A stretch of DNA of 24,052 nucleotides from a virus: the IMG/VR virus record IMGVR_UViG_3300020183_000456, positions 1 through 24,052 of that record. One strand, written 5' to 3'. Each line of letters begins with the position of its first letter. Positions within the stretch are counted from its first letter, which is position 1. The notes below the pieces were generated by a model. The model saw only the letters and a program-made list of their open reading frames with translations. It searched no databases and was not told where the DNA came from. Positions 274 through 23,976 of the stretch are shown here, one piece after another. Made by a program: the position numbers and the translations under genes.

Positions 274-1125
274 TTATATACAATTCTGTGCATCTAGTAC
301 AGCACCGTTAGCTGCTATCTGTGCACGTACTGATCCAATTCCTCCTTGTATTTGATACCTATAGTAATCTCCTGTACCAGCAAATTCAGAAGTAAGAGCT
401 GAATCGGTATAGAAAGTGGTTACTGTCAATGCCGTACTTTCAGCAGCATATAATGTTACACTTGTATGAGAACTAGCACAAGCAGCAACAGGATCAGCAT
501 AAGAAGTATCGTTTACTATATAAGTGTAGTAAGTTATTGGAGTAGGAGTAGGAGTATTTGTAGGTGCTGCTGGTGTAGGAGTAGGTGTATTAGTAGGAGC
601 AGAACATAGTCCTATTTGAGTTAAAGTAGTTCCATTTAACGAAGTAGGGTTACCTATCGTATCGCAGTTACAGAAATTACCAGTTGCATCTCCTGACGAT
701 ACTACTTTCGATTGATTAGAACCGTCTTCACAAGAATAATAACTTATAATATCTCCTTCAGCTGGTATACTTCCTCCTTGATATTCCCAACTATTACAAG
801 TAGCACAAGAGAACGGAGTTGGTGTAGGTGTTGGAGTTGCAGTAGGACCAGGAGTAGGAGTAGGTACTAAACATATAGCAATATTAGTAACGTTACCTGA
901 AGAGTCGATTTCACAACTATAATAATCCGTCTCTCCATCTAACTGAAATTTATAGAATCCAGGAGCTCCTGTTGGAACTAATCCACTACCTGATAACTGA
1001 GGATTGTTAAAGAATTTTATTACGGCTGTTGAACTAGATGCTGCTGCATATGATGTTACGCTAGTTATAAAAGGATCTGCGCAAGCGCTTGCTGCATCAG
1101 CATAGTGTACGCCTAAAAATTTATA
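274..1125 (-). repeat. Duplicated ~85-residue domain in the fibre protein
   Basis: The two copies correspond to bases ~871-1125 and ~274-537 and are separated by a Cys-rich domain and TP linkers. They align over most of their length: SACADPFITSVTSYAA with AACASSHTSVTLYAA, then GFYKFQL with YYRYQI, then a terminal SGNVTNIAIC with ANGAVLDAQNC. Divergence is high, so the duplication is old or the domains were acquired separately. Confidence 0.6.
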
Positions 1126-2676
1126 TTTCGTAGAAGCTACTACAGGAGTAGGAGTTGGTGTTGGAGTATTAGTAGCTATTATTACAGGAGTAGGAGTAGG
1201 AGTTGGTGTACCTGTAGGAGTAGGAGTTGGTGTAGGTGTCGGTAATACAATCTCCACAGCAGTTCCTAATACTGCACAATTAGGTGTTGGTGTTGGAGTT
1301 GGAGTAGGAGTAGGAAGATTAAGTAAAAAGTTATTAATAAAGATAGATTGAGTACTACCTGCACTTGCTGATAGAGGTACTGTAAAGAAATCTAAACCTG
1401 TATTTCTACTATAAGTTACAAAAGAAGATGCTGATACTAATCCGCCTCCTGCATTACTACTGGTGGTTTCTACTACTTCAGATCCAGAAGTAACAGTAGG
1501 GTACCCTATAATATTCCAAACACTACCGGTATAAGGAATACTTCCACTTGAATCGTTGGTCTGATAGAAAGTTTCTACTATTAACGATCTAGTGTTGTGA
1601 TATATGTTACCAGCAGAAGCGGTTATAGTAAAAGATCCTGATAATAATTGTCCAGGTTTAACTGAGTTAACATCTGGTAAAAAGGTGTAACCACTACCGT
1701 CTTCTCTAATTCTAAAATTATTATCTAATACTACTTCAGTAAAAGAAGAGCTATACTGGTTCATCTTCCAAATAACGTAAACATCAGGATACGGAGTTGG
1801 TGTGGGTGTAGGCGTTGGAGTTGGAGTTGGCGTCGGCGTCGGAGATGGAGTTGGAGTAGGCGTGTTAGTAGGAGTCGGTGTTGGAGTTGGAGTCGGTGTT
1901 GGAGTTGGAGTTGGTGTTGGCGGTATTATAGAATTTAAATAATAAGGGTTAGTTACTACTGTTAACCCTTGAGCATAAAAAATATTTCCAACCGACCCTG
2001 TGTTATTATTATTAAAAGAATAATTTAAAGCTTCGTAGATAAAGTTAGTACTGTAGAGTAAACTTCCTGTATAGTTACTAAGACTTGCAGTATATCCTAT
2101 TGACCCGGATTTACTCTTTAAGTAAGGTACTATATCTACTAAGTTTCCATTTCTATCATCTACTATATAAAAAGACTTATCAGTAGCTTCTATTGCGAAA
2201 CTTCCTTCTTTTATCTTTTCACCGTACTTTATTTGAGGTATAGAGAAAACTGTAACTTGCCCTGGAAGTCTTACGCTTGCAGATAGGGAAGAAGAGTAAA
2301 AATATCGCGTATCGGAATCTAACGTACCCGATGCAGCTGTAGACTGAAGATAGTTGGTAAAGGATTGTTTAGAAGTGTAATTTCCATCATTATATTCTAC
2401 ATCTGCTAAATCCTGATAAGTCATTTCAGCAGTAGGCTTCAAATAAGATTGAGAGTATACTTGTTGATTGTAGAATAATTTAGATATAGATCTGTAATTC
2501 AAAGAGTGAGTATCTAAATTTACAGACCCGGTATTATCTACTCCTGAGTATATGTAGTTATATCCGCTAGATGTTAGATCTGAGTAATAGGTTATATTTA
2601 TACTACCTTGCTTGTATGCCGTATGTGGTAGTACAGAGACGTCCGATCTATTAAGAGATTTACCTGCAGAACTCAT
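274..2676 (-). CDS. Modular tail fibre/adhesin with Pro-Thr linkers
   Basis: An 800-aa secreted-type, Ser/Thr/Tyr/Gly-rich virion protein. Residues 1-250 form an N-terminal domain that probably anchors it to the tail. Residues 252-295 are an almost pure Thr-Pro linker. Residues 296-452 are a beta-rich domain. Shorter TP linkers lie at about 453-463, 479-512, 603-621 and 693-713. Two homologous ~85-residue Cys-containing domains lie at ~518-602 and ~714-800 (shared pattern ACA..SVT.YAA, F/Y-Y-[KR]-[FY]-Q, terminal C). Between them is a Cys-rich domain (~622-692) with CATC and CNC. It follows baseplate and virion genes and precedes a second TP-linker protein, which fits a host-binding fibre. 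The domain layout is seen directly; receptor binding is inferred. Start ATG at 2674-2676 has A/T-rich upstream sequence and no Shine-Dalgarno. Confidence 0.75.
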   Translation of the reverse strand: MSSAGKSLNRSDVSVLPHTAYKQGSINITYYSDLTSSGYNYIYSGVDNTGSVNLDTHSLNYRSISKLFYNQQVYSQSYLKPTAEMTYQDLADVEYNDGNYTSKQSFTNYLQSTAASGTLDSDTRYFYSSSLSASVRLPGQVTVFSIPQIKYGEKIKEGSFAIEATDKSFYIVDDRNGNLVDIVPYLKSKSGSIGYTASLSNYTGSLLYSTNFIYEALNYSFNNNNTGSVGNIFYAQGLTVVTNPYYLNSIIPPTPTPTPTPTPTPTPTPTNTPTPTPSPTPTPTPTPTPTPTPTPYPDVYVIWKMNQYSSSFTEVVLDNNFRIREDGSGYTFLPDVNSVKPGQLLSGSFTITASAGNIYHNTRSLIVETFYQTNDSSGSIPYTGSVWNIIGYPTVTSGSEVVETTSSNAGGGLVSASSFVTYSRNTGLDFFTVPLSASAGSTQSIFINNFLLNLPTPTPTPTPTPNCAVLGTAVEIVLPTPTPTPTPTGTPTPTPTPVIIATNTPTPTPTPVVASTKYKFLGVHYADAASACADPFITSVTSYAAASSSTAVIKFFNNPQLSGSGLVPTGAPGFYKFQLDGETDYYSCEIDSSGNVTNIAICLVPTPTPGPTATPTPTPTPFSCATCNSWEYQGGSIPAEGDIISYYSCEDGSNQSKVVSSGDATGNFCNCDTIGNPTSLNGTTLTQIGLCSAPTNTPTPTPAAPTNTPTPTPITYYTYIVNDTSYADPVAACASSHTSVTLYAAESTALTVTTFYTDSALTSEFAGTGDYYRYQIQGGIGSVRAQIAANGAVLDAQNCI
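1792..1923 (-). repeat. Long Thr-Pro linker tract (44 residues)
   Basis: On the plus strand the tract reads as GGN-GTN/AGT-type hexamers. On the coding strand it is alternating Pro and Thr with one Ser and one Asn interruption. Pro uses CCA, CCT, CCC and CCG, and Thr uses several codons, so the DNA is a degenerate rather than a perfect repeat. Confidence 0.85.
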
Positions 2677-14198: not shown

Positions 14199-14690
14199 TT
14201 ATATTTGTCCTTTAGCTTTTAGTGATTGCATTAAATTCGTAAAATCCGGAACGGCGTCCGGAAGTTGAACTGCTTCAAAAGTACTTGCAGGTCTAGCTGC
14301 TTGTAATATTTCGCTTACGTTCTCAGTTATAACTGTTTCTCTTTGAGGTCCTAAATTTTGCATTGCTCTCATTCCGAATCCTTGAGCATCTTGAGCACCA
14401 AAGTTACCTATACTTCTATAATCGTCTGGTTGCATTGCATATTTTGTCTCGTTTAACAAATCTGCAATAGGATCTCCTGTAGATACCCGTTCTTTTACGG
14501 GCTGTGGTTTTACTGAAGGTTTAATAGATTCCACTAAAGAACTTTTAGTGTACACTGGTTTAGAAGGAGTTATACTTCCTTCTAGTAGAGGTTTAAGTTC
14601 TTGCATAGCCAGTTTCATTTCTGTTCTGACTGCTAGAGCTACCTCTTCTCTAATTAATTTTCTTAACGCGTCTAAATTCTTAGTTGCCAT
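14199..14690 (-). CDS. Unknown tail-operon protein with LRKLIREEV N-terminus
   Basis: A 163-aa protein. Residues 3-30 form an amphipathic helix (NLDALRKLIREEVALAVRTE). A flexible Pro/Ser/Lys-rich segment follows (~38-68), then GDPIADLLNETKYAM and a C-terminal part rich in Ala/Pro/Gln. It sits 1 nt upstream of the gp25 gene. The N-terminal helix resembles the N-[IL]-[ND]-x-[VL]-RK-x-IR pattern of the start-less ORF at 23851-23976. Location in the baseplate operon implies a structural or assembly role; no specific function can be given. A near-match to the promoter motif lies 6 nt upstream. Confidence 0.6.
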   Translation of the reverse strand: MATKNLDALRKLIREEVALAVRTEMKLAMQELKPLLEGSITPSKPVYTKSSLVESIKPSVKPQPVKERVSTGDPIADLLNETKYAMQPDDYRSIGNFGAQDAQGFGMRAMQNLGPQRETVITENVSEILQAARPASTFEAVQLPDAVPDFTNLMQSLKAKGQI

Positions 14691-18435: not shown

Positions 18436-19209
18436 CTATTTTTCTAACTCGTATTCTCCTTTTTCTAGATATAAACTAAGTCTTTCTTTATATATACTCT
18501 TCATTTTTTTAATAACCCTAGTAACAATGGGGGTAGGTACATCAGTTATTTCCCTAATGTATATATAGATTGCTTTTTTAGAAAGAATATCTAAAGACCC
18601 TCTATTTTTAAATAACTCCAGTACTGCATCGGCTACTTTTGCTTCTTTTTCTTTACAGAAAAGTTCAAACATTTTTGAATCAACATACCTAACGAAAATA
18701 TCTATAAACTTGCTTACATAGGAAGCTTCGGAATGCTCAGATGTTATATCGGCTAGAATAGTTTTATCTGTATCTACATCCTCTAGAGTAGCTTTATTTT
18801 TTAATTTTTTATAGTTATTATTATTGTATATAATCAAGTATCTTTTAGCAATAGTTCCAAAATAGGAATAAGCTTTTCCTTTTGCTTGATCATACTTAGA
18901 AAGCTTTTCTAAAAGAAAACAAGTTACTTCATGTTGCAATTCTTGAATACTATCTACTTCGGTATAATAGAACTTAAATGTGTGAATTATGTTTTCTGTT
19001 AGTTTGAAGAAAGCATGTTGAATTCTAGAATTATAAATTCTGTTTCTCTCATCCTGATCTAAAGAAGCTACATACTCTAGAATAGCAGTTTCTGTGTCTG
19101 GTGTAAAATAATATATTTTTTGCCTTGGCTTTCTCTTTCTAACTGTTCCTTTCTGTGTAAGCAGAACTTCACTATCAGAAGTCAAAGTTTTCTCTAGTTC
19201 ACTCATCAT
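18436..19209 (-). CDS. 55: Late-transcription sigma factor, gp55-like
   Basis: A 257-aa protein, longer than the 185 residues of T4 gp55. Residues ~58-135 resemble sigma region 2: an E-L-Q-H-E-V helix near 90-94, then LSKYDQAKGKAYSYFGTIAK and a Tyr/Asn/Lys-rich segment ending near 138. Residues ~205-245 are a helix-turn-helix-like end (IYIYIREITDVPTPIVTRVIKKM). The N-terminal ~30 residues are extra, with a basic patch RKRKPRQ. Gp55 directs host RNA polymerase to late promoters. It overlaps the upstream gene (ATGATGA), so translation may start at either of two adjacent Met codons. It directly precedes a TATTTATA motif and the structural operon. No sliding-clamp binding peptide was confirmed. 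Confidence 0.8.
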   Translation of the reverse strand: MMSELEKTLTSDSEVLLTQKGTVRKRKPRQKIYYFTPDTETAILEYVASLDQDERNRIYNSRIQHAFFKLTENIIHTFKFYYTEVDSIQELQHEVTCFLLEKLSKYDQAKGKAYSYFGTIAKRYLIIYNNNNYKKLKNKATLEDVDTDKTILADITSEHSEASYVSKFIDIFVRYVDSKMFELFCKEKEAKVADAVLELFKNRGSLDILSKKAIYIYIREITDVPTPIVTRVIKKMKSIYKERLSLYLEKGEYELEK

Positions 19210-21224: not shown

Positions 21225-23393
21225 TTAGAGAAGATATGGTCTTAGATCATTCCATTTTTTCTTCTCTCCAGATTTAAGCATTTTGTGAAGCTCATCCGCT
21301 TCGTCGTAATCTGGACCAATAAACAACCAGTGCATGCTTCCGTTTACGTAAGAGTGGTCTACTACTTCAACATATTCAGGTGCCTCCTCATACATGGAAA
21401 AATTAACATTCGGATCTGCATCACTGCCTTCATCTGCGTAAAGGTCTTCTTCCAGTTGCTGGTAGAGTGATTCAGCTTCAAGTTGAGGGTCTCCTTTTAT
21501 TTTTTTAAACTCTTCAATTTTATATTCCGATACTCCTCTTCCGGTATCAGGATCTAAAGTTCTAGCACGACTTGCTCTATATTGAATAACTAAACACTCA
21601 TCTTCTTTGAATTCTCTCTCTTCAAAAGGATTAAATTCTTCATCCTCTCTCAACCTTTCTCCACTTATATTAGATTGATAACAATAGTCTTCAATCTTAT
21701 CAGTTATTTCATTTCTAGTAAGTTCAGCTAACTGTTCTTTATTGAGAGGAAAGCGAGGTTTACCATCATTACCTAATTCAGAACCACCAACCCACCCCAT
21801 TTCATGACTATCAAAGAATGCAATAAAATCTCTATCCTCTGTACAATCCTCACAACTAAGGTAAACTCTCCAGGTATCATCTCCAATGTAATGCATTCCC
21901 TCATTTCTAAGAGTTACTTGATCAAGAGTTTTTTCTGTCTCAAATGGATTAAATTCTTCTACATCTTCAGTAGCCATAGTAGCATTAAAGTGTTCGTCAT
22001 CTACTTTTGTTATACTCTTTTCTGGAATTACTATAGCATTAAGAGAATCTAACCCTGCTGCTTTAGCTGCTAGAAACCTATGGTGACCGTCTAGTATTTG
22101 ATACTTATCATCTAGCTGTCTAACTAAAATAGGATTCACTTTCTTATTACTTTTGTAAGCTTTAATAAGAGATTTAATATCCTCCTTATCTTTTAGTTTG
22201 GCTTTTAATGGTTCATTTGCAACTAAATCGTTTAAAGAAATTTGTATAGCAGATTCTTTATCTAAATACTCATCTCCAAATACGTCTACTCCTTTATCTC
22301 CTGGATATAAGTTAACTTCTATATCTTCGGTAGCCATAGTAGCATTGAAGTGTTCAATATCTACTTGATTAGTTTCTGGATCCACTTCTTTACCGTGATT
22401 GTTATGCTTTCTTGCGGTTTCTGATAAAAACTCATGAAAAAACCTATCTTGAATGTCTGATTTGAGAAAGTTATTGCTATTCAAAAGAGAAAGGTCTTCC
22501 CTATCAAGATATTCCATATCAAAACTATCTCGTTCATCAACAGAGACGCGAGAAATACGTTCATTAAAAATATTGTAAATAGCATAATATAATAAATTAT
22601 CAGCTTCAGGATCAGTAAATGTAACGAAATAATCTCCCTCATCACCTTCCTTATATTCTTCCATATCCTGTACTGTAAACTCTATATCATGTAACCCCTT
22701 CTCTACCTCAAAAGGATTAAACTCCTCTTGTTCATTTACAAGTTCAGGATTGCGATCAATAAGTTGATCAATACGGTTAAGGACTTCATCAGAATCAAAG
22801 TTATTCACTAATTCCTCATATACAACAGTATCAGGTTCTCCCAAAGTAGAAAGCATGTGTATAACTATGTAGGCAAGATCTTCAACAGGAAGATCCGCAT
22901 ACCGAGGTCGATGCATGAAAGGATACCTCTCTTCAGCAGCAGACCTAATACTATCTATAATAATATCATCGTAGTCAGATACTTTCTTTTCTTCAAAAGG
23001 GTTAAACTCCTCTTCTTCTCTCAAACCTTCTAAATCAAGATCTGCCATATCAAACTCCCCTTCATCCTCATTTCCACCATCTTTTAGGTAATAGGATCTT
23101 CTGGTCTTAATTAAATAATCTGCAAACGTGCTATAATCATCTCTATTTAAAAAAGATAAAAAAACTCCCGGGTCATTAGATATATCACATAGATCATCCA
23201 CAGTACCCCATACATCATCTTTAATATTACCTCGATTATCAATATAGTATACCTCGTCTGTCTTAGGGTCAATAGCCACCCGTCCAGACTTTAGTATAAT
23301 TCTATTATCCACTTCAAAAGGATTAAATTCTTCCTCTTCTTTTAGAAGACCAGCATTCTTCATTAAACGGTGTTGATCGCGGCGGAATATCAT
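21225..23393 (-). CDS. Tagged multi-module protein with ParB-like domain; possible internal-head polyprotein
   Basis: A 722-aa strongly acidic protein. It opens with RLMKNAGLLKEEEEFNPFE (residues 9-27), nearly identical to the start of the 142-aa protein upstream. EEFNPFE recurs at residues 128-134, 223-229, 479-485 and 585-591, and a second tag, EHFNATMATED, at 347-357 and 467-477. These tags separate about six modules of ~90-130 residues. The module at ~375-465 is a ParB/sulfiredoxin-like domain (NPILVRQLDDKYQILDGHHRFLAAKAAG; DGHHR at 435-439). The module after residue 485 contains C-E-D-C. The others are unrecognised. LKE, LRE and LRE precede the tag in three copies, resembling L-x-E sites of the T4 prohead protease. 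I infer a packaged polyprotein; a single large multidomain protein with linker motifs is the main alternative. Confidence 0.7.
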   Translation of the reverse strand: MIFRRDQHRLMKNAGLLKEEEEFNPFEVDNRIILKSGRVAIDPKTDEVYYIDNRGNIKDDVWGTVDDLCDISNDPGVFLSFLNRDDYSTFADYLIKTRRSYYLKDGGNEDEGEFDMADLDLEGLREEEEFNPFEEKKVSDYDDIIIDSIRSAAEERYPFMHRPRYADLPVEDLAYIVIHMLSTLGEPDTVVYEELVNNFDSDEVLNRIDQLIDRNPELVNEQEEFNPFEVEKGLHDIEFTVQDMEEYKEGDEGDYFVTFTDPEADNLLYYAIYNIFNERISRVSVDERDSFDMEYLDREDLSLLNSNNFLKSDIQDRFFHEFLSETARKHNNHGKEVDPETNQVDIEHFNATMATEDIEVNLYPGDKGVDVFGDEYLDKESAIQISLNDLVANEPLKAKLKDKEDIKSLIKAYKSNKKVNPILVRQLDDKYQILDGHHRFLAAKAAGLDSLNAIVIPEKSITKVDDEHFNATMATEDVEEFNPFETEKTLDQVTLRNEGMHYIGDDTWRVYLSCEDCTEDRDFIAFFDSHEMGWVGGSELGNDGKPRFPLNKEQLAELTRNEITDKIEDYCYQSNISGERLREDEEFNPFEEREFKEDECLVIQYRASRARTLDPDTGRGVSEYKIEEFKKIKGDPQLEAESLYQQLEEDLYADEGSDADPNVNFSMYEEAPEYVEVVDHSYVNGSMHWLFIGPDYDEADELHKMLKSGEKKKWNDLRPYLL
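21956..22004 (-). repeat. Direct repeat, downstream flank of ParB-like module
   Basis: Second copy of the ~49-bp repeat, encoding VDDEHFNATMATEDVE and running straight into an EEFNPFE tag. Differences from the first copy include silent third-position changes, so the repeat is not brand new. Confidence 0.8.
22316..22364 (-). repeat. Direct repeat, upstream flank of ParB-like module
   Basis: This ~49-bp segment matches 21956-22004 at about 43 positions, exactly 360 bp (120 codons) away. It encodes VDIEHFNATMATEDIE. The pair brackets the ParB-like module in frame. Confidence 0.8.
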
Positions 23394-23420: not shown

Positions 23421-23849
23421 CTATTTCTTCAAATAACTAATTCTTGTATTATACAACTGCTCACCGTAGCTTATAACCCAGTCTTTATTCTGATTTAAAA
23501 GCTTAAAAAGAAACTCCTTTAGCTCGGTCTCATCAACATCAGCAAGCACAGCAGGTATATCATACCCCTCTATTTCTCCTTCACCCCGAAATATTATACC
23601 TCCACATATGTTTACTATATCCTTATCCCAAGACTCTGGGTTATCTTTTCTTGGGTCATTTACTCTCCGCATTGCTGTAACGGTAGTATTAACTACTTTT
23701 TTTTCTGCATAAGCCACCGCCAGGAGATTTAACAAAAAGTCTTTATGTTGTTCTAAGGTTGTAGTAAAGTCTTCAAAGGGGTTAAACTCTTCTTCCTCCT
23801 TAATTAACCCGGCTAATTTCATTAGTCTTTGTATGTCTGGTGTACTCAT
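23421..23849 (-). CDS. Small protein with the RLMKxAGLxKEEEEFNPFE tag
   Basis: A 142-aa protein. Residues 8-26 (RLMKLAGLIKEEEEFNPFE) match the N-terminus of the 722-aa protein at all but two positions. The remaining ~115 residues form one acidic alpha/beta domain (FLLNLLAVAYAEKKVVN, DIVNICGGIIFRGEGEI, ELKEFLFKLLNQNKDW) that I do not recognise. The N-terminal helix plus IKE site recalls the capsid-targeting peptides of T4 internal proteins, which gp21 removes after (L/I)-x-E. I infer a packaged internal-head protein or the single-module counterpart of the 722-aa protein. The start ATG lies one base after a TAG that ends another open frame. Confidence 0.65.
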   Translation of the reverse strand: MSTPDIQRLMKLAGLIKEEEEFNPFEDFTTTLEQHKDFLLNLLAVAYAEKKVVNTTVTAMRRVNDPRKDNPESWDKDIVNICGGIIFRGEGEIEGYDIPAVLADVDETELKEFLFKLLNQNKDWVISYGEQLYNTRISYLKK

Positions 23850-23850
23850 A

Positions 23851-23976
23851 CTAAAAAAGAAAATTATTTTTTTTCATTTCTTCAGCAATTACTTGACGGA
23901 TTGCTTTGCGTACTTCGTTAATATTCGTTGTATTATTTTTGATATGTTTATGTGTATAAATATTAGGGAACTTTAT
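23851..23976 (-). other. Small ORF without a usual start codon, possible frameshifted gene
   Basis: After an in-frame TAA, a 41-codon frame runs to a TAG placed one base before the 142-aa gene's ATG, as operon neighbours are elsewhere here. It encodes NINEVRKAIRQVIAEEM near its end, a helix like the NLDALRKLIREEV start of the 163-aa tail protein. No ATG, GTG or TTG is in frame before that helix. A 15-codon ATG frame (24020-23973, beginning MANPNENKY) overlaps its start in another frame, so a -1 shift or a one-base error would join them. A rare start codon or a non-coding origin are also possible. Confidence 0.3.
23955..23962 (-). promoter_or_regulatory. TATTTATA motif, candidate late promoter
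   Basis: Coding strand reads CTAATATTTATACACA, upstream of the 142-aa gene and inside the start-less ORF region. It has no start codon close downstream; the nearest accepted ATG is about 106 nt away. Confidence 0.4.

Follow-up and report, generated by a model that had tools for sequence, protein, structure and literature searches.

A six-module protein with repeated prohead-protease-like sites, a probable cargo polyprotein carried in the head of a T4-like phage

The internal head proteins of phage T4 (IPI, IPII, and IPIII) and Alt carry a short N-terminal capsid-targeting tag ending in (L/I)-x-E, after which the prohead protease gp21 cuts, and each is encoded as one protein per gene (PMC9026906). 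Polyvalent proteins, such as P1 DdrB with its ParB-like domain, join several unrelated domains in one chain and have been proposed to be packaged, processed, and injected; the proposed processing is by a built-in metallopeptidase, a zincin-like domain that is common but not obligatory (PMC5512222). In P1 DarB, a single large protein of 250 kDa, the N-terminal tag suffices to send the protein into the head (PMC9024508). Head proteins of SPN3US and phiKZ are single substrates with several x-x-E cuts made by a gp21-related protease; the accessible portions of these reports place the extra cuts within the removed propeptide and report no release of several mature proteins (PMC5694885, PMC10052503).

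The window, which is the whole stretch of 24,052 nucleotides analyzed here (IMG/VR record IMGVR_UViG_3300020183_000456), is a virus fragment in which tail genes predominate. The baseplate wedge protein shares 46% identity with its counterpart in Flavobacterium phage immuto and 43% with the one in Microcystis phage Mel-JY01, the HD hydrolase shows 45% identity to the immuto protein, and relatives of the gene at 18436-19209 number in the hundreds among IMG/VR contigs. An 800-aa tail-fibre-like protein (274-2676, minus strand) includes long PTPTPTP runs. No head gene (protease, scaffold, or capsid) was recognized within the 24-kb window. A gene for a 722-aa protein, which adjoins the genes for glutaredoxin and the HD hydrolase and tail genes and lies outside any head cluster, probably encodes a cargo polyprotein of a T4-like phage that is packaged in the head and cut between its modules by the prohead protease. 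The features of this gene and of its upstream neighbor are as follows.

21225..23393, minus strand: proposed six-module cargo polyprotein of 722 aa (P0001; open reading frame, near-identical in contigs L001 and L002)
23337..23369, minus strand: N-terminal tag RLMKNAGLLKE, residues 9-19, proposed cut after Glu19 (tag profile, 17.4 bits)
23016..23336, minus strand: module 1, residues 20-126, starting with EEEFNPFE and ending with GLRE (folded alone)
22731..23015, minus strand: module 2, residues 127-221, starting with EEEFNPFE and ending with LVNE (tag register)
22326..22730, minus strand: module 3, residues 222-356, starting with QEEFNPFE and ending with EHFNATMATE (tag register)
21966..22325, minus strand: module 4, residues 357-476, ParB/Srx-like, between (E)HFNATMATED direct repeats (Pfam, PDB, repeat DNA)
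21645..21965, minus strand: module 5, residues 477-583, starting with DVEEFNPFE and ending with RLRE (tag register)
21228..21644, minus strand: module 6, residues 584-722, starting with DEEFNPFE (tag register)
23313..23333, minus strand: EEFNPFE copy 1, preceded by L-K-E (exact match)
22992..23012, minus strand: EEFNPFE copy 2, preceded by L-R-E (exact match)
22707..22727, minus strand: EEFNPFE copy 3, preceded by V-N-E (exact match)
21939..21959, minus strand: EEFNPFE copy 4, preceded by MATE-DV, a weak site (exact match)
21621..21641, minus strand: EEFNPFE copy 5, preceded by L-R-E (exact match)
22323..22355, minus strand: EHFNATMATED copy 1 (repeat DNA)
21963..21995, minus strand: EHFNATMATED copy 2 (repeat DNA)
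23421..23849, minus strand: proposed single-module tagged cargo protein of 142 aa (P0002; open reading frame)
23796..23828, minus strand: tag RLMKLAGLIKE of the 142-aa protein, residues 8-18 (tag profile, 23.7 bits)
23772..23792, minus strand: the single EEFNPFE of the 142-aa protein (exact match)

The locus resembles the T4 internal proteins in its short N-terminal tag ending in (L/I)-x-E, its proposed small cargo, and the presence of an S77 protease in the phage group. It differs from them in that six modules stand behind one tag, in that the tag has another sequence, common to the scaffold C-terminus, and in that the internal junctions retain the cut site alone. Like the polyvalent proteins, the 722-aa protein combines unrelated domains in a single chain, a ParB-like one among them, whereas its modules are separated by a repeated tag and its candidate cut sites resemble those of the prohead protease. 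No peptidase domain was found in the 722-aa protein by the Pfam scan. DarB likewise has an N-terminal tag, but of another sequence and on a single large protein. We know of no separate T4-type scaffold in P1.

The computed mass of the 722-aa protein is 84 kDa, with a pI of 4.35 and a net charge of -94. EEFNPFE starts at residues 21, 128, 223, 479, and 585, that is, at spacings of 107, 95, 256, and 106 residues, and the 256-residue gap is divided into about 124 and 132 by two copies of EHFNATMATED, which start at residues 347 and 467 and flank the ParB-like domain. The modules 1 to 6 are 107, 95, 135, 120, 107, and 139 aa long. The DNA of the window matches back-translated EEFNPFE exactly at six places, against none in 100 dinucleotide shuffles, and no 5-mer occurred more than twice in any of 500 shuffles of the protein; a chance origin of the repeat is thus ruled out. 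The residue positions and the shuffles bear out the five EEFNPFE and two EHFNATMATED copies of the earlier note, which had also reported RLMKxAGLxK ahead of the N-terminal copy and ahead of the copy in the 142-aa protein; these are RLMKNAGLLKE and RLMKLAGLIKE, respectively.

Two other IMG/VR contigs (L001 and L002) carry the same gene, with 98-99% protein identity over the overlap, and an assembly artefact is therefore unlikely. Both contigs break within this gene, and the window itself stops a short way upstream of it, which may reflect variability of the region or difficulty in assembling it. Compared with L001 (17582-23232), the window has nine base differences, all nonsynonymous, which is odd for a virus, and they are too few to judge.

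The tag was searched for in related phages. A prohead protease of the Peptidase_S77 family (the T4 gp21 family) is encoded by six of eight relatives, including both isolates, immuto and Mel-JY01. The relatives have the tag in the form R(M/L)Q(K/Q)LAGI, and the immuto sequence is MKKQILSEQFRRMQKLAGIITESQFNE; immuto has a tagged protein of 154 aa with LAGIITE. Counted over the window and seven records of related phages, the loose RLMKxAGL motif was found 13 times at the N-terminus (two of these being the window's own), seven times at the C-terminus, and twice internally, against shuffled expectations of 0.05, 0.05, and 0.5. In all five records inspected for this, a C-terminal copy forms the final residues of the protein encoded between the protease and major capsid genes, such as SRWQKLAGIIK in immuto, whose capsid and protease were identified via PHROG, and ERMKKLAGIVK in Mel-JY01.

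Scanning IMG/VR for exact matches to RMQ[KQ][LF]AGI revealed at least 123 copies in at least 120 contigs. Among the matches listed, 84 of 123 lie within 1-5 aa of the stop (median protein length 357 aa), 37 are N-terminal in small, diverse proteins (median 123 aa), and two are internal. For the C-tagged proteins among these matches, a major capsid gene was found less than 400 nt downstream in all 55 cases with enough flank, and a prohead protease upstream in 40 of 47; they therefore occupy the position of the gp22 scaffold. As a control, the same DNA pattern was scanned in 84,980 bacterial and archaeal genomes, where the matches were chiefly internal or non-coding (24 internal, 8 outside open reading frames, 4 in very short and 5 in short doubtful ones), and two were true phage scaffolds. 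A tag profile built from other phages gives 17.4 bits for the tag of the 722-aa protein and 23.7 bits for that of the 142-aa protein, and none of the remaining open reading frames in the window exceeds 4.8 bits.

Because the motif is placed at the scaffold C-terminus and at the N-terminus of small proteins, it is most simply explained as a prohead-building contact. This role as a targeting signal, proposed in the earlier note, is strongly supported by the sequence comparison, as in related phages with an S77 protease a tag of this type is found at the end of the scaffold and at the beginning of many small proteins. The proposed search for both motifs over phages had a divided outcome: RLMKxAGL-type tags occur in relatives, whereas EEFNPFE is confined, within IMG/VR, to this virus population. 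Other IMG/VR matches to EEFNPFE are unrelated, non-repeated, and chance-like, and it was rejected as a general phage motif. No occurrence of EHFNATMATED was found elsewhere. The search for RLMKxAGxxKE elsewhere gave one unrelated lysine-rich family and nothing more, and no convincing match was obtained for RLMKLAGI as the end of the window virus's own scaffold. Two RFMKLAGI-tagged proteins (L287 and L290) consist almost wholly of acidic repeats and appear nearer to a prohead core than to cargo.

The tags run into candidate protease sites. Among the matches listed, all 37 N-terminal tags are followed by [LIVF]xE within 14 aa, versus 21% of control stretches from the same tagged proteins, and in 25 of the 37, as in both window tags, Glu is observed at position 11 from the tag Arg. 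The two window tags end in (L/I)-x-E, with LLKE and LIKE at positions 8-11. The capsid propeptides of the relatives were compared at the putative equivalent of the T4 gp23 cut site, which we take, by eye, from the ENQ...xxE context and knowledge of T4. All 60 distinct sequences have [V/I/L]-x-E there (for example, LVVE, IVAE, LVTE, IVSE, LLRE, and LIKE). Since most of them (48 of 60) have Val, V-x-E is probably also a good cut site in this phage group. The propeptide sites LLRE, LIKE, and LVTE resemble LLKE, LIKE, and LVNE of the window.

The junctions in the 722-aa protein are LLKE/EEEFNPFE, GLRE/EEEFNPFE, LVNE/QEEFNPFE, and RLRE/DEEFNPFE, and that in the 142-aa protein is LIKE/EEEFNPFE. Thus, to the LKE or LRE noticed earlier before three copies (1, 2, and 5), copy 3 adds V-N-E in the same register. 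A same-register Φ-x-E precedes four of the five copies, for which P is ~7e-7 if the copies are treated as independent, which they are not; the figure overstates the case because the copies probably share descent. The exception is copy 4, after the ParB module, where MATE/DVEEFNPFE offers A-T-E alone, as does the left edge of that module. At the internal junctions, the RLMKxAGL half of the tag is gone and the cut-site half is retained. The whole protein contains 14 [LIV]xE. The cutting by the protease that the earlier note envisaged is favored by the register of the sites and by the relatives' capsid propeptides, and is less well matched by the weak site at copy 4.

The six modules and the 142-aa protein are mutually dissimilar outside the shared tag pieces. 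Tandem duplication of a single domain is excluded because the modules are unrelated; the match between modules 3 and 4 is the EHFNATMATED tail alone. Polyvalent proteins are defined by two or more unrelated domains in one polypeptide of a mobile element, and the 722-aa protein contains such domains. Module 4 is the sole one of the six with a recognized family: residues 384-456 match Pfam ParB_N with the e-value 1.3e-9, as a general ParB_N match, and ParB chains in PDB match at ~7e-5. This similarity marks it as a nuclease or nucleotidase of the ParB-like kind. On both sides, the module is bracketed by a near-identical direct repeat of ~45 bases coding VDxEHFNATMATEDxE (21963-22355, minus strand), so that it appears as though inserted or exchanged as a cassette.

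Searches for homologs of the whole 722-aa protein in phage records gave weak ParB matches and nothing else. Standalone homologs of the window's own modules were searched for and not found, no ParB-domain protein was found in the eight relatives, and no defence-system model matched. The earlier suggestion that the modules are effectors thus gains a recognizable activity in the ParB-like module and none in the other five.

Structure prediction of a module alone, as proposed earlier, was performed for module 1. Residues ~27-100 form one compact domain (pLDDT ~70-85), while the EEEFNPFE start and the C-terminal linker before the next cut site are below 50, leaving the tag outside the confident fold. 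This prediction fits a bead with loose linkers. The full 722-aa chain, predicted without an alignment, has a pLDDT of 34 and is uninformative. In fold searches with the module 1 model, no significant match was found in PDB, and the best match among viral models was an unnamed protein (e-value 2.9e-3).

Three independent cases were found in the relatives in which the domain of a tagged standalone protein recurs as a non-first module of a larger protein. In all three, the homology begins at a Φ-N-E junction, and the larger protein has no RMQQLAGI half there. One case is L255, where a two-module protein of 195 aa (DINESQ-INE/KNEDLLSF) matches its 171-aa neighbor (LNE/KNEDLLSF; pairwise e-value 9e-8). 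In L268, a 428-aa scaffold protein embeds a cargo-like domain (INE/AKKATFTVPAND) that matches a tagged 100-aa protein of L220 (LNE/ARKPDLIIPAND; 4e-17). In L214, a 760-aa core-region protein directly upstream of the protease (INE/ALNKEL) matches a tagged protein of L226 (LNE/ALNKDM; 1e-9). The L268 and L214 loci were confirmed as head clusters. A full tag also lies midway in a 521-aa protein of L183. Such re-use of domains is thus a habit of the group, and among the examples found the window protein takes it furthest. The origin by fusion of tagged genes that the earlier note proposed is supported by these three cases as analogs; for the modules of the window protein itself, the searches gave no standalone relative.

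The proposed course of events is as follows. Late in infection, the 722-aa chain would be made, and its N-terminal tag RLMKNAGLLKE would dock at the place where the scaffold C-terminus docks, building the chain into the prohead core; the steps up to docking rest on comparison with the relatives, which strongly supports the targeting. The S77 protease would then cut after Φ-x-E, beginning at the end of the tag (LLKE) and continuing at the internal junctions LRE/EEEFNPFE, VNE/QEEFNPFE, and LRE/DEEFNPFE, and MATE/D would probably be cut on both sides of the ParB module. From such cleavage between the modules, up to six small proteins of ~95-139 aa would be freed, a predicted size equal to that of single-module tagged proteins in the relatives. 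These products would be present in the virion, remaining in the head with the DNA, and, by analogy with the T4 internal proteins, would enter the host at infection and act on it. That the modules are anti-host effectors is a guess. For this large aquatic T4-like group as a whole, we lean slightly toward one packing address common to the scaffold C-terminus and the cargo N-termini, together with true polyproteins that release several injected proteins.

The main rival reading makes the 722-aa protein a sacrificial component of the prohead core. Targeted by its tag, it would help build the core and then be chopped, and the pieces would mostly leave, like those of T4 gp22 and gp67, which gp21 cuts into several fragments (PMC9026906); the repeats would serve destruction and not the release of effectors. 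The protein is very acidic, as core proteins are, and some tagged relatives (L287 and L290) are acidic low-complexity proteins. The modules, however, resemble folded domains, namely the ParB-like enzyme and the predicted domain of module 1, and a ParB domain is needless in a core protein. The sites also fall between the modules, with so few [LIV]xE in all 722 aa. This reading is therefore considered unlikely. Slightly less likely still is a polyvalent protein that loses the tag alone and is packaged and injected whole as one multidomain chain, with the EEFNPFE copies serving either to link the modules flexibly or to dock a partner common to them. Such a protein would be in the company of other large multidomain head proteins, such as DarB (PMC9024508) and the polyvalent proteins (PMC5512222), and copy 4 indeed has no good cut site. 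Against it stand the Φ-x-E in one register before the other four copies, matching the capsid propeptide sites of the group, and the junctions before embedded modules in the relatives, which likewise keep Φ-N-E.

A protein outside the virion, whose tag and repeats act otherwise in the infected cell (for example, in multivalent binding) and resemble the scaffold tag by convergence, is very improbable. The gene does lie beside glutaredoxin, HD hydrolase, and tail genes, away from a head cluster, and EEFNPFE has no known partner. Convergence accords poorly with tags that score 17-24 bits on a profile from other phages versus at most 4.8 for other window open reading frames, and with a tag class that lies at a protein end in 121 of the 123 viral copies among the matches listed and is common to the scaffold.

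The reading as a cargo polyprotein cut between its modules is only partly new. The earlier note knew of no phage effector polyprotein organized in this way; packaged, possibly processed multidomain proteins (PMC5512222) and capsid-targeting sequences (PMC9026906, PMC9024508) are already described, while the tag family and the repeated-site layout appear to be new relative to the literature searched. The tag sequences do not occur in the open-access literature searched, beyond which other papers may exist, and a repeated prohead-protease site between modules was not found in the reports on polyvalent proteins or on the T4 and P1 capsid-targeting sequences. If the reading is true, phage heads use polyproteins in the manner of many viruses of animals and plants, and a single targeting signal serves many cargoes. 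Modules joined behind one tag would load several proteins in a fixed ratio under one address, and sharing the tag would spare the cost of tagging each cargo protein. The scaffold/cargo tag would also be a simple sequence rule predicting injected proteins straight from genomes in an apparently widespread, mostly environmental phage group, for which virion proteomics is needed today phage by phage. The reading is directly testable in the isolate immuto.

Two further observations were made in these records. In the relatives L028 and L030, a 352-aa open reading frame in a neighboring gene has an internal repeat of 130 residues (NVSMGVVAE...IEEWEV). Besides the tag, another class of motif concentrated at N-termini, LRxIIREE/LKKLIKEAV, was found in the related phage records L103-L156 (16 N-terminal, 3 C-terminal, and 2 internal copies, against shuffled expectations of 0.05, 0.15, and 0.25). 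In the window, it occurs in a 163-aa protein (14199-14690); immediately ahead of the 142-aa gene (23851-23922, minus strand), the stretch INEVRKAIRQVIAEEMKKNNFLF lacks a start and looks like a remnant.
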